The notes beneath the pieces are model-generated. The model worked only from the letters and a program-made list of their open reading frames with translations. It was not told the DNA's origin and made no database searches. From the NCBI RefSeq assembly GCF_024346975.1, contig NZ_AP024885.1, forward strand, positions 1,736,001 through 1,800,000: a stretch of DNA of 64,000 nucleotides, written 5' to 3'. The stretch is from Vibrio neonatus. GTDB taxonomy: Bacteria > Pseudomonadota > Gammaproteobacteria > Enterobacterales > Vibrionaceae. The translations under genes and the position numbers were made by a program. This document shows, one piece after another, positions 50,220 to 53,803 of this stretch; positions within the stretch are counted from its first letter, which is position 1; each line of letters starts with the position of its first letter.

Positions 50220-50969
50220 TTAATTTTTATCTTCCTTTAAATACTGATGCCAATTAACTCTCAATTGCTGATAGTTTTCTTCACACACCTCTTTTTGCTC
50301 AGCAAGATAATCGCCTTCAACCTCATTTAATAAATCTTCATGCGCTTTAGGATCACGGCCATAAACTAAACAAAGCGTGGAAAAGTAACGCTGTAAATCA
50401 AAGCTGTGATCACCAACATACTCACCAAAATCATAATATTCACTCCCCTCTTCGGATTCATAGCTAAACATATCCGCCGCATTAATAGCCGCTTGTGCGC
50501 CATTCTTTAAATACTCAAGCATGATAATAGTCGCAAGGTTATCAACCGCATCTTCTTCTCGCCCAAGAATAGGGATTTCAATATCGGCAACAAGAGCGTG
50601 CCCAGCTTCATGCAATAAGGTATGCATCAAAGTATCTAACACGCCTTGATTAACTTCATCTGCTGGCATGTTTTGAGAAAAGTAGTGCTGCGCTTCAAGG
50701 ATAAAGCTATAAGGGATAAATAAAGTATGGATACTAGGATCATACAGCGGGCCTTCATCACCACCATAAACCAGCGTCATAGCATTATTAAAAGGAAACA
50801 CCTCTTCCACCAACGCAGAAAATTGTTGGTTAATGCCGCTCTCTACAATCAACTGGTAAGCCGCTTGCTCATCCTCCCCCTTCGGTGATTGATACTTAAG
50901 CTCAACCGACTCACTCGCCAACACAGAAGACGTAACAAAAAGCAATCCAACCAATGCTGTCCTTAGCAT
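50220..50969 (-). CDS. DUF4344-type putative metallopeptidase, exported
   Basis: The protein has a signal peptide (MLRTALVGLLFVTSSVLASE), the zinc-protease motif HEAGH at residues 120-124 (LLHEAGHALV), and downstream GREEDAVDNLATIIMLEYLK, a possible third-ligand region. This matches the DUF4344 family of putative exported metallopeptidases. I choose the ATG at 50969 (249 residues): AAGAGG lies six bases upstream and a clean signal peptide begins there. It is 80 bp downstream of the viperin-linked genes on the same strand; a link to them is unproven. Confidence 0.82.
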   Translation of the reverse strand: MLRTALVGLLFVTSSVLASESVELKYQSPKGEDEQAAYQLIVESGINQQFSALVEEVFPFNNAMTLVYGGDEGPLYDPSIHTLFIPYSFILEAQHYFSQNMPADEVNQGVLDTLMHTLLHEAGHALVADIEIPILGREEDAVDNLATIIMLEYLKNGAQAAINAADMFSYESEEGSEYYDFGEYVGDHSFDLQRYFSTLCLVYGRDPKAHEDLLNEVEGDYLAEQKEVCEENYQQLRVNWHQYLKEDKN

Positions 50970-51049
50970 ATTAACCTCTTGATTTGATAGATAAGTTAAG
51001 TTAAGTGTAGTAAAAATCAACTTACAAAAACTGAAAAACACAAACAGAC

Positions 51050-51334
51050 TCATAAAGTACTAATCCAATAGTCAAATTCAGTACGACTCATACAATAGTA
51101 AGGGCCTGTGTTCCTGCACGTTCGCTCAACCAATAGACGATATTTTCGATTAATACGGTAGCTCAACCAATTTTTATTTTTTTGCAGCACCTTTGGCCTC
51201 ATACCCCTCTGAATATCATTCGTTCTTATTCTCGAAACCATACTCTTAGCCATAGTTACTACTCTAGGCTGCCCTTTAGGCGTACTGACTTGAATCGTCA
51301 CTCCATCGACCACTATTATTTTTTGACGATTCAT
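51050..51334 (-). CDS. Uncharacterised 94-residue protein with ParE-toxin-like C-terminus
   Basis: I do not recognise this as a named protein. The N-terminal half is basic (RVVTMAKSMVSRIRTNDIQ). The C-terminal half, NWLSYRINRKYRLLVER followed by YYCMSRTEFDYWI, resembles the W-x-S-x-R-x-x-R-x-Y-R-L-L ... M-S-x-x-E-[YF] pattern of ParE-like toxin folds. The ATG overlaps the viperin stop by 4 bp (ATGA), so the two are translated together. There is no adjacent antitoxin of the usual kind. Its function could be an effector, a regulator or an accessory of viperin. Confidence 0.8.
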   Translation of the reverse strand: MNRQKIIVVDGVTIQVSTPKGQPRVVTMAKSMVSRIRTNDIQRGMRPKVLQKNKNWLSYRINRKYRLLVERTCRNTGPYYCMSRTEFDYWISTL

Positions 51335-52212
51335 ACCGCCACCAATTCATAACGCTGGGCAAATTTCGCAGCATTAAACCCTGTCTCTGCCAATGCCACC
51401 TCAACGTTGCTACTAAGTAAAGGACTGCTTTTAAAATAACCTTGTGCATCATTTCCATTTTGGAAAAACGCGCCGTCAGGACTTAGCATCAGATACGAAT
51501 TGGTCATTGAATCATTATTTTCGACCGACATGACATCCGCCACCAACTGATGACGTTCAACAAAGGCATCAAAATCTTGATTGCTAATGGTTTGGATAGA
51601 GTCGAAGACAGGCAGAACGCGCAACACCTTCCACTTGTCGGGTTGAAGATCACCAATTAAGCTTGTGAAATCTTCTTGGTGATTAAATTGATTCACTACT
51701 GTATTGATTTTCAACTCGGTCGTGGGCGAGTAATGCCTCACTTTTTGAAAGATGGACTGTAAACGCTCTGAAGATAAGTTTTGACTCTTAGGGGTAACTC
51801 GACCAATTTGTTGCTGCGTCTCAAAATGAGATGAATCATAGCTAATACCTAACAATTGGAGTTTTTGGCTGTGTTCGGCAATAAATTGATCGTCAATTAA
51901 ATGACCATTGGTGATGATGGATGTCTTAAAACCAAGTTCAACAGCGTAATCAAGTGCATCAATAAAGCGTTGTTTTAAAAGTAAAGGTTCTCCACCAGCA
52001 AAATTAAGCCTGACACTGTCATACCGCAGTTCTTGCCAGATAGGGTTCGATGAGAAGAAGTATTGCGCTAACTTTCTCAGTACCGCCTTCATGTCATCTA
52101 AGTTGCGATGCAGTTCGTTGGGTTTCGCCCATTTTGCGTAACAATAATGGCAATCGTAATTGCATTTTTCGGTGATGTGATAATTGATAACTAACTGATT
52201 TGCTTGGTTCAT
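51331..52212 (-). CDS. Prokaryotic viperin (radical SAM antiviral enzyme)
   Basis: Viperins are radical SAM enzymes that turn a nucleoside triphosphate into its 3'-deoxy-3',4'-didehydro form, a chain terminator for viral polymerases. The 293-residue protein begins like viperin (INYHITEKCNYDCHYC), with the 4Fe-4S cysteines C17, C21 and C24 and the SAM-binding GGEP at 73-76. The nucleotide-binding segment KINTVVNQFNHQEDF (K168, N170), then KWKVLRVLPV, FVERHQLV and NSYLMLSPDG, align one by one with human viperin's KINSVINRFN, RWKVFQCL, FLERHKEV and DSYLILDEY. No nucleotide kinase gene is adjacent. Which NTP is used cannot be told. Confidence 0.9.
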   Translation of the reverse strand: MNQANQLVINYHITEKCNYDCHYCYAKWAKPNELHRNLDDMKAVLRKLAQYFFSSNPIWQELRYDSVRLNFAGGEPLLLKQRFIDALDYAVELGFKTSIITNGHLIDDQFIAEHSQKLQLLGISYDSSHFETQQQIGRVTPKSQNLSSERLQSIFQKVRHYSPTTELKINTVVNQFNHQEDFTSLIGDLQPDKWKVLRVLPVFDSIQTISNQDFDAFVERHQLVADVMSVENNDSMTNSYLMLSPDGAFFQNGNDAQGYFKSSPLLSSNVEVALAETGFNAAKFAQRYELVAV

Positions 52213-52247
52213 AACACTACTCCTTTAGGTCTGTAGAAGTAGTGTTA
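52212..52247 (-). promoter_or_regulatory. Hairpin overlapping the viperin ribosome-binding site
   Basis: TAACACTACT and AGTAGTGTTA are a perfect 10-bp inverted repeat with a 16-base loop. In the mRNA the downstream arm contains the end of the Shine-Dalgarno AAAGGAG and reaches the A of the AUG start. When folded it should hide the start site, suggesting that viperin translation is held back until the hairpin opens. It could also be a DNA operator. Confidence 0.6.
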
Positions 52248-52250
52248 ATC

Positions 52251-52263
52251 TGTGCAGTGCACA
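52251..52263 (-). promoter_or_regulatory. Perfect 13-bp palindrome upstream of viperin
   Basis: TGTGCAGTGCACA is a perfect inverted repeat (6-bp arms, central G) in the 63-bp spacer between the 233-residue gene and viperin. It has the look of a dimeric repressor operator. It is next to another small palindrome, AAAAAAGCGTTTTTT (52263-52277), that runs into the stop codon of the upstream gene. No known regulator consensus was recognised. Confidence 0.5.
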
Positions 52264-52275
52264 AAAAAGCGTTTT

Positions 52276-52977
52276 TTAGTCCGGTAATGAATTTAGTAGC
52301 GTATTAAAGCTTTCTCCATCTTTATATTCTTGGCGAACTTGCTGTGCCAAATTGGCTAACAATATGTCACTTTGCAACAATGCCGAATCTATCTGCTCTA
52401 CCAGTTCAAAAGCCGTCGATAAATCTTGCTCCAACCAACAAAGTAACACCTTGTCTTTGTATGAGAGTGATAAGCGTTGTGCTCGGAGTAATTGATACAG
52501 CAACCCTATATTTTGCAAAGCCATATCCATTTGTGGCAATCGCTGTGCGGAAAACGGGCACGTTAAACGGATGTCTCGTAAATTAAACGACGTATCTTTC
52601 AGCTGAGTAATAAATTCTCGCGCTACCTGCGATAGCAATGCGGGCGCTTCTACGGCTTGCGCTTTGAGTAGAATCTCCTCACACAAAACAACGCTCTCGG
52701 CTCTAACGGCTGCTTGTTCAAAAATGGCTTTAACAAACTTTGTATCGTTAAAAAATCCATCCAACACTAGCGCGTTAAACAAGCAATCTACCGCTTTAGA
52801 TTTTAATAGCTTCTTACCCCGCTTTCCCATGCTATCGTCGCTAAACCCATCACTGACTATCAATGAGGATGGGATAACTTGGTTGCGTAAAAAACTATTG
52901 GCTTTGGACCGCAGTGACTCACTCCCTTCTATACCAAATAGATCTTTCACAGCTTGATTGGTTGTGACTAACGGCAT
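52276..52977 (-). CDS. Uncharacterised 233-residue protein upstream of viperin
   Basis: I do not recognise this protein. It is predicted mostly helical and soluble, with no signal peptide or membrane helix. It begins MPLVTTNQAVKDLFGIEGSE and has a basic cluster DDSMGKRGKKLLKSK near residues 47-61. Two cysteines occur in SVVLCEEILL and RLTCPFSAQR. It overlaps the preceding exported protein gene by 10 bp and ends 63 bp before viperin on the same strand. A regulator or accessory of the viperin unit is possible but rests on position only. Confidence 0.75.
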   Translation of the reverse strand: MPLVTTNQAVKDLFGIEGSESLRSKANSFLRNQVIPSSLIVSDGFSDDSMGKRGKKLLKSKAVDCLFNALVLDGFFNDTKFVKAIFEQAAVRAESVVLCEEILLKAQAVEAPALLSQVAREFITQLKDTSFNLRDIRLTCPFSAQRLPQMDMALQNIGLLYQLLRAQRLSLSYKDKVLLCWLEQDLSTAFELVEQIDSALLQSDILLANLAQQVRQEYKDGESFNTLLNSLPD

Positions 52978-53321
52978 ACGGCGTGCTCTATCACCCTAGC
53001 TTCGGAAAACGCACGTTCGACGCTGACCGAGGCAATGATTTCTGCCGAACGATAAACCGAAGGTGAACGAGGGTAAGCGCATTGACTATTGGCATGCATT
53101 ATCGCACCAAGGCAGTAACCAGCGCGAAAGCTCTCTTCTTTTGAAGTAGTCAGAAAAGCGCCAAATCGTGAGTCATCTCTTTTGTTATAGAGTTCTGTAT
53201 ACTCCTGACAAGCAGAAATAAGAAACTCTACGCTGCCCGGTTTAGCATCCGAATGCATAAGTGCATAGCTAGGGCGGGCAAAAATGAAAAGAAACGCCGT
53301 TAGATAATGTATTGGCTTCAT
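52968..53321 (-). CDS. Small exported protein, Rap1a/Tai-like pattern
   Basis: The 117-residue product has a signal peptide (MKPIHYLTAFLFIFARPSYA) and a mature part with cysteines in FLISACQEY, AGYCLGAIMHANSQC and EHAVCR. The spacing and the GYCLGAI motif recall the Rap1a/Tai family of periplasmic immunity-type proteins, a weak match by eye. It overlaps the membrane-protein gene upstream by 4 bp and the 233-residue gene downstream by 10 bp, so the three are probably one transcript. Confidence 0.7.
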   Translation of the reverse strand: MKPIHYLTAFLFIFARPSYALMHSDAKPGSVEFLISACQEYTELYNKRDDSRFGAFLTTSKEESFRAGYCLGAIMHANSQCAYPRSPSVYRSAEIIASVSVERAFSEARVIEHAVCR

Positions 53322-53803
53322 TCTGCCGCTCCCTTCACATTCACTGTTGCTGTGTTGTCATCGTTTTGTGAGTCAATTCGGTGATAGCTATAGGTAAACG
53401 TCGCCGCTATCAAGATATATGAGATTAAATCCAAAAATGGCACCCTAGCTAAATCATCCCAATTCAAGCGAGGCTCTATTTTTATGCAAAACAGAAGTAA
53501 AACAGATAGCAGCAACATTAAGTGAGCTTGGTGAACAAATGGAGTAATGACTTTTCTTATCACTGATGTATTGACCCGTGAACAGAGCTTTATGTATTTA
53601 TAAGTAATCACAACCAAAAATACGATGTACGCCGTTTCTATTAAATCAAGCTCACCCAGTGAATACGAATATTCGAACATTTCGAGTGGAACGAGTAAAT
53701 AGCTATAAATACCTATCAGAAACATGGTCATTAGCCATAACCATTTAAAAATGACTTTGATTCCATGCCACACACTTAAAGCTGTGCTTTTTTCTGTTTT
53801 CAT
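53318..53803 (-). CDS. Uncharacterised four-helix membrane protein
   Basis: The 161-residue protein has about four hydrophobic segments: WLWLMTMFLIGIYSYLLVPL, TAYIVFLVVITYKYIKL, AHLMLLLSVLLLFCIKI and FLDLISYILIAATFTYSYH. A polar C-terminal tail follows. No family is recognised. It is the first gene of the overlapping group that leads to viperin, next to a 567-bp gene-free stretch that would hold the promoter. Confidence 0.72.
   Translation of the reverse strand: MKTEKSTALSVWHGIKVIFKWLWLMTMFLIGIYSYLLVPLEMFEYSYSLGELDLIETAYIVFLVVITYKYIKLCSRVNTSVIRKVITPFVHQAHLMLLLSVLLLFCIKIEPRLNWDDLARVPFLDLISYILIAATFTYSYHRIDSQNDDNTATVNVKGAAE

Follow-up and report, generated by a model that had tools for sequence, protein, structure and literature searches.

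How do bacteria hold a viperin in check until it is needed? To our knowledge this is an open question, and control matters, as the enzyme could harm the bacterium's own nucleotide pool. The question is raised by a viperin gene in a 64,000-nucleotide stretch of the Vibrio neonatus genome (the window; contig NZ_AP024885.1, positions 1,736,001 to 1,800,000), where the gene occupies positions 51331..52212 of the minus strand and encodes 293 residues (ATG start, stop codon included in the coordinates). It lies fourth among five genes: three that encode uncharacterised proteins, here termed U161, U117 and U233, then viperin, then a gene for a small ParE_like protein. These genes and their order are observed; their joint function would be that of a regulated anti-phage operon, silenced until triggered, in which viperin is the effector. 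This proposal, built on comparison of sequences, is one we consider evenly poised between right and wrong.

Identity of the viperin gene

A curated model, similarity to solved structures and a tree together support the window gene as a prokaryotic viperin (pVip), an enzyme of known kind. Its product scores 341.8 bits against NF038283, the NCBI equivalog model for prokaryotic viperins (cut-off 180), and is matched by the PADLOC pVip models, the best of which is the kinase-associated model (347.1 bits). The motifs INYH (residues 9-12), CNYDCHYC (the CxxxCxxC motif), NFAGGEP, KINTVVNQFN (168-177), WKV (194-196), ERH (219-221) and SYL (239-241) follow one another in this order, and the CxxxCxxC and viperin motifs are in register with those of solved viperins. 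Ten sequences in the PDB were matched, nine of them viperin-like in name or score (E 4e-28 to 3e-22) and the tenth, 8vpo, a different radical S-adenosyl methionine (SAM) protein (E 6e-5). Solved structures aligned to the window protein include the viperin-like enzyme 7n7h (E 4e-28) and 5vsl and 6q2p, both radical SAM domain-containing protein 2 (E about 2e-25). This similarity to solved viperins is far above chance.

In a 47-row tree the window viperin falls inside a clade of ten viperins, nine from Vibrio or Aliivibrio and one from Aeromonas tecta (support 99/100). The MoaA of the same genome, identified by TIGR02666 (343 bits), lies elsewhere in the tree. That MoaA was one of five Vibrio radical SAM proteins used as controls; human viperin was absent from the tree. 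The placement carries two warnings, as the five controls do not lie on one side of a branch and one of them, L003, which has a very long branch, is placed among the viperins. Split or short viperins (L055, L118, L126, L026, L096 and L128) were left out of this tree and of a second one, from which the five controls and the plasmid viperins L133 and L134 were also omitted.

An earlier, sequence-only reading of this DNA had proposed a prokaryotic viperin at 51331-52212. The coordinates were exact, with minus as the strand that it did not give; all of the motifs it named were found, in order; and the identification is borne out by the model score and the solved viperins. The phylogeny that it had suggested as a check groups the protein with viperins and not with MoaA. 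The window viperin looks functional, and is predicted to produce ddh-nucleotides and to protect against phage. The same reading had called viperins rare, for which uncommon is the better word: among sampled genomes, on which all distribution figures given here rest, the NF038283 cut-off was exceeded in 16 of 227 from the genus and 24 of 394 from the order. A search of 50,697 phage records, which did not extend to viral contigs, found no viperin relative at E 1e-5. Seventeen plasmid records matched, of which six were examined.

The operon and its recurrence

Viperins at least 65% identical to that of the window were found in 11 loci. Ten of these, from Vibrio and Aliivibrio, make up lineage A (L036, L037, L041, L046-L049 and L054-L056, where L056 is the window and L046 and L048 are nearly alike), and in all ten the gene order is U161, U117, U233, viperin, ParE_like gene. 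The eleventh, from Aeromonas tecta (L038), has a viperin 75% identical to that of the window, and the other operon genes are absent. The gene context that had seemed unfamiliar is thus no local matter of the window. The window genes are closely packed, with coding overlaps of 4 nucleotides (U161/U117), 10 nucleotides (U117/U233) and 4 nucleotides (viperin/ParE_like) and a single gap of 63 nucleotides, from U233 to viperin. Against V. halioticoli, the ratios of non-synonymous to synonymous substitution rates are 0.36 for U161, 0.11 for U117, 0.13 for U233, 0.09 for viperin and 0.16 for the ParE_like gene, indicating purifying selection across all five. The flanks vary, with hsdM and hsdS in L036, homologues of these in L037 and L054, and other genes elsewhere. 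In V. ezurae the viperin gene lies in two frames (L055:7480-8357), through decay or an assembly error, and the other operon genes are open.

U161 (53318..53803, minus strand) is the first operon gene, present in all ten loci, and by hydropathy encodes a membrane protein, with four hydrophobic segments in the window copy. U117 (52968..53321, minus strand) encodes 117 residues with four conserved cysteines and is probably secreted, while the 233-residue product of U233 (52276..52977, minus strand) is cytosolic. None of the three has a match over any Pfam cut-off. U233, which the sequence-only reading had listed as an unknown protein, has no Pfam match even at E 0.1, its only library matches being marginal (PADLOC HerA, 15.7 bits, E 9e-4; one NCBIfam model, E 0.07). 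A predicted N-terminal winged helix-turn-helix of MerR type offers a weak hint, with 68-117 residues aligned to the MerR-family regulators 3gpv, 5d8c, 3qao, 5i44 and 4r4e at root-mean-square deviations of 2.3-6.9; on this modelled fold, U233 is a possible regulator. The predicted fold of U117 weakly resembles Tai4 type VI immunity proteins. U117 might therefore be an orphan immunity protein of this kind, with the first genes of the operon countering rival bacteria rather than phage, but no sequence match to Tai4 accompanies the fold and the gene sits among defence genes, and we give this explanation very little credence.

The last gene of the operon (51050..51334, minus strand) encodes 94 residues. 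Its description as a coupled ParE-like protein stands, with 41.8 bits against PF24732 (cut-off 24.4) and the 4-nucleotide overlap with viperin. It follows viperin in 10/10 Vibrio and Aliivibrio loci; the diverged copies in L046 and L048 fall just under the cut-off (23.3 and 23.4 bits). Membership of the family rests on this score, and toxicity is predicted. A thymidylate-kinase-family gene comes next in five of the ten loci (L046-L049 and L054). This kinase was not found nearby in L036 and L037, nor at E 0.001 anywhere in the genomes of the window, V. halioticoli and V. ezurae, so that the remark that the window locus has no nucleotide kinase is true and, for the kinase of the sister operons, can be widened to the genome at that threshold.

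Beyond lineage A, the three upstream genes recur as a triad in viperin-less loci (lineage B) and in two further viperin lineages (C and D). Searched with a U233 profile, the 227 genomes of the genus gave 15 matches, eight in genomes with a type-A viperin and seven weaker ones without viperin; all seven of the latter loci hold U117-like and ParE_like matches, with split frames in L072 and L078. The order sample adds three viperin-less triad loci, L106 (ParE_like in two pieces), L107 (ParE_like present) and L105 (no ParE_like found). A lineage-C U233 profile matched 5 of 394 genomes, four of them beside viperin. The fifth locus, L152, has no viperin in the stretch examined; its triad is accompanied by a ParE_like gene (31.6 bits), a kinase-like gene and another radical SAM gene. 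The triad thus stands without viperin in 11 loci, ten of which have a ParE_like gene, and U233 in viperin-less loci comes immediately before it. Viperin loci of the order sample with membrane, secreted and cytosolic genes upstream are L109, L110, L111 and L119 (lineage C) and L113 and L122 (lineage D), and lineage C is carried by two Pseudoalteromonas plasmids, where the three genes are annotated as hypothetical. A scan of 47 viperin loci found the triad in 18 (10 A, 6 C and 2 D), a figure that describes synteny and not an independent search, since 16 of the 18 had gone into building the profiles.

For both U233 and U117, profile comparisons support homology between lineages through a chain of pairs, not in each pair. 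In single hhalign comparisons, U233 gave 5e-27 for A-B, 2e-5 for A-C and 2e-6 for B-D, and U117 gave 6e-15 for A-B, 9e-6 for A-C, 5.6e-9 for B-C and 2e-9 for C-D, while five unrelated pairings run as controls each had a probability below 1%. The B profiles were built from six (U233), four (U117) and five (U161) of the ten B loci. The tree test neither establishes nor rejects a single viperin clade of A, C and D (p-AU 0.40), a result compatible with one origin of the association or several. In a class-wide sample of 274 genomes only the window's own genome matched the U233 profile, whose reach is therefore short. By tblastn no U233 was found on plasmids, although the diverged lineage-C form occurs there, and two peptide patterns found none in viral contigs. 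A 415-residue protein adjoins viperin in lineage D and the viperin-less triad of L152 (L113:8709-9956, L122:9136-10383 and L152:8812-10059); the L113 copy is a radical SAM protein by Pfam, with a B12-binding match below cut-off.

Both lineage-D viperins carry a C-terminal ParE_like domain (PF24732, 27.0 and 27.3 bits; cut-off 24.4). No such domain was present in the single lineage-C viperin tested, and in the six lineage-C viperin loci a scan out to 5 kb detected no ParE_like gene. These arrangements bear on the possibility that the locus is a toxin-antitoxin module, in which U233 would be the antitoxin and autoregulator of ParE_like and viperin an inserted passenger. Antitoxins often carry DNA-binding domains, a role that the possible winged helix of U233 would fill, and the position of U233 directly before ParE_like in viperin-less loci is explained well. 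The presence of relE next to pVips, reported in passages of PMC10865869, points the same way. Yet 6/6 lineage-C loci keep the triad and viperin with no ParE_like gene detected, lineage D has viperin fused to ParE_like, and a two-gene module has no place for a membrane and a secreted protein. As a candidate antitoxin of a type II system, U233 has no Pfam match over cut-off and a weak winged-helix hint. We regard a toxin-antitoxin module as doubtful.

The neighbouring DUF4344 metallopeptidase gene (window 50220-51053) overlaps the ParE_like gene by 4 nucleotides in its longest open reading frame. The DUF4344 match begins at residue 25 in V. ezurae and residue 9 in V. halioticoli, so that the apparent coupling may come from the choice of start. 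The gene was rejected as an operon member because its conserved part begins past the overlap and because the window, V. halioticoli and V. ezurae are the only cases in which it follows the operon. An empty site was sought through this gene in 26 relatives (13 matched) and 30 hand-picked genomes (four matched). None was found in the two loci examined, both from the hand-picked set, which lacked all the rest of the 17 window genes tried. No shared motif was seen upstream of U161 in one alignment, and an Rfam scan near the locus returned tRNA only.

The junction between U233 and viperin

The 63-nucleotide gap is conserved in all ten lineage-A loci, at 91% mean column identity (stop codon and ATG included) compared with 74% identity for the U233 proteins. 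Within it lies the palindrome TTGTGCACTGCACAG (52250..52264, minus strand), a possible operator or RNA stem; TTGTGCANTGCACA has one exact copy in the 3.84-Mb genome, at the junction. The palindrome recurs in different letters in 28/28 junctions (10 from A, 9 from B, 6 from C, 2 from D, and L152; L105 lies outside this set), with six arm pairs intact in 27 and five in L110. Across its ten distinct forms, pairing holds in 59 of 60 stem cells, and ten cells are changed on both sides, a number equalled in none of 500 shuffles. The covariation score is 0.57, compared with 0.14 when shuffled (0/500 as high) and a maximum of 0.19 when slid. The palindrome changes compensatorily between lineages. Its central pair is kept in eight of the ten forms, which suits a DNA operator no less well than an RNA stem. 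In viperin-less L105 (8479-8640), which has no ParE_like gene, a similar palindrome lies at the U233 stop and is followed by another small open reading frame, whose ribosome site, by eye, falls within a short inverted repeat.

Between the palindrome and viperin, a fold of the whole junction predicts a 12-bp hairpin (52213..52246, minus strand), the 3' arm of which is the viperin Shine-Dalgarno sequence and ends directly before the ATG. The 69-nucleotide window junction folds at -22.2 kcal/mol (z -4.86; 0/200 shuffles as stable). A helix of 12-14 bp covers the ribosome site in eight of the ten A loci and one of 6 bp, with one mismatch, in the other two; the two lineage-D loci have helices of 12 and 11 bp, and L152 has one of 4 bp. 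At 282 control start sites of the same loci, the helix reached at least 7 bp in 22 and at least 9 bp in four. Shuffle z-scores for the start-site stretch are -4.2 in the window, -7.6 in L046 (lineage A), -7.4 in L113 (D) and -5.4 in L119 (C). A leader open reading frame of 37 codons (MYHL or MHHL start), conserved between palindrome and viperin and overlapping the viperin start, is present in L109, L110, L111, L119, L129 and L130; in L152 one of 43 codons precedes ParE_like.

A possible switch and known systems

From the recurrent triad, the viperin slot between U233 and ParE_like, the gene fusion and the conserved junction we infer one functional unit. In the regulated operon proposed here, read-through transcripts would give little viperin, probably because its Shine-Dalgarno sequence is paired. 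The membrane protein U161 and secreted U117 might sense a change in the envelope, such as phage attack, and signal to U233, which would act on the junction palindrome, as DNA or RNA, to make the effector message translatable. Viperin would then produce ddh-nucleotides that halt phage transcription, while the ParE_like protein may slow or kill the infected cell. The nucleotide kinase of the operon is absent from the window's version.

A broader and more tentative suggestion, which we hold to be less probable than the regulated operon, is that the three proteins form an envelope-to-cytoplasm sensing module swapped among effectors, which it silences through the palindrome and the ribosome-site hairpin and releases on phage attack. 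Its effector versions would be a bare ParE_like protein, viperin with ParE_like, a viperin-ParE_like fusion and viperin alone. If this is true, the module would give bacterial viperin an induction switch of its own, with a role comparable to that of interferon induction in animals.

A number of observations weigh against the regulated operon. Relatedness of U233 went undetected by hhalign in A-D and C-D and was barely detected in B-C, and the membrane genes of A and B have no detectable relatedness to those of C and D. Foldseek found no match in the PDB for U233 or U117 at E 0.001 or below, and VIA-align Z was below 8 for all of their structural comparisons. At the junction, the aligned 15-mers were picked for their palindromic look, and 4 of the 6 palindrome pairs are changed on both sides, a count reached in 36 of 500 shuffles. 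A sigma-70 promoter starting inside the hairpin was considered and found no support; the junction has no good sigma-70 promoter. Variation of the hairpin within lineage A is one-sided: three pairs also occur as G-U, two loci have one mismatch, and there is no double compensatory change, so that covariation neither supports nor opposes it. In the six lineage-C loci the helix has 6 bp and is part of a stem that is interrupted and stable (-20.0 to -21.9). The stems of lineage C and L152 lie over a leader open reading frame (37-43 codons) overlapping the next gene's start; the C stem masks this frame and not viperin. In the viperin-less B loci the start-site helix is just 0-7 bp in 9/9, and that stretch in L074 has a z of -2.5, with 10 of 500 shuffles as stable.

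The triad is also absent from 29 of the 47 viperin loci. They include that of Aeromonas tecta, with its close viperin, and L121, which falls within the lineage-C clade; in L118 and L096 the upstream sequence is shorter than 1 kb, and in four plasmid loci it spans 3-4 kb. Viperin can thus do without the triad. This absence and the type I restriction genes that adjoin several loci favour a stand-alone viperin sharing a defence island by chance with an unrelated conserved cluster. The constancy of the operon in 10/10 Vibrio and Aliivibrio loci, the same slot in three lineages, the strongly conserved junction and the gene fusion speak against mere coincidence, which we think unlikely. A regulated operon remains our preferred explanation. 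Its conserved gene order, predicted silent message, recurrent upstream set and viperin-toxin-like fusion offer a testable answer to the question of viperin control, together with three uncharacterised protein families.

A second Vibrio viperin group accounts for eight of the 16 viperin genomes of the genus. Like the window viperin it exceeds the NF038283 cut-off, but the two share 44-46% identity and the group has no triad. A kinase follows viperin in three of its loci, and a cysteine-rich protein of 117-118 residues in five. Many second-group viperins (L042, L043, L045, L051, L053, L112, L114, L117 and L120) are directly followed by such a protein, of 116-118 residues with two similar halves by eye. 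In L115 (7548-7763) a 71-residue protein precedes viperin, with a HicA match below cut-off (19.5 bits; cut-off 27); a HicA assignment was dropped for similar small proteins in L108 and L126, neither of which matched HicA.

Prokaryotic viperins were reportedly described by Bernheim in 2021, with Vibrio viperins said to be among the first tested. In the literature covered here, titles and abstract openings on viperin with toxin, operon, regulation, Pseudoalteromonas phage or Rap1a contained no description of the triad or junction, a scope that does not permit a claim that the operon is unpublished. The passages of PMC8649781 and PMC10732462 covered do not mention the window operon genes. The nearest precedent is partial: Gerdes 2024 (PMC10865869) describes, in the passages covered, hicA and relE genes beside pVip genes, with joint action proposed, and these loci share with the window a small toxin gene adjoining viperin. 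Section 10 of that paper does not mention the triad, the junction palindrome and hairpin or the viperin-ParE_like fusion, though its figures and Table S1 may include some of the loci. Within this coverage no description of the operon around viperin was found. The curated model, the motifs, the tree and solved relatives all place the window enzyme in one family with known pVips; to this the window adds U161-U117-U233, the junction element and the ParE_like gene, in a copy that has no kinase.
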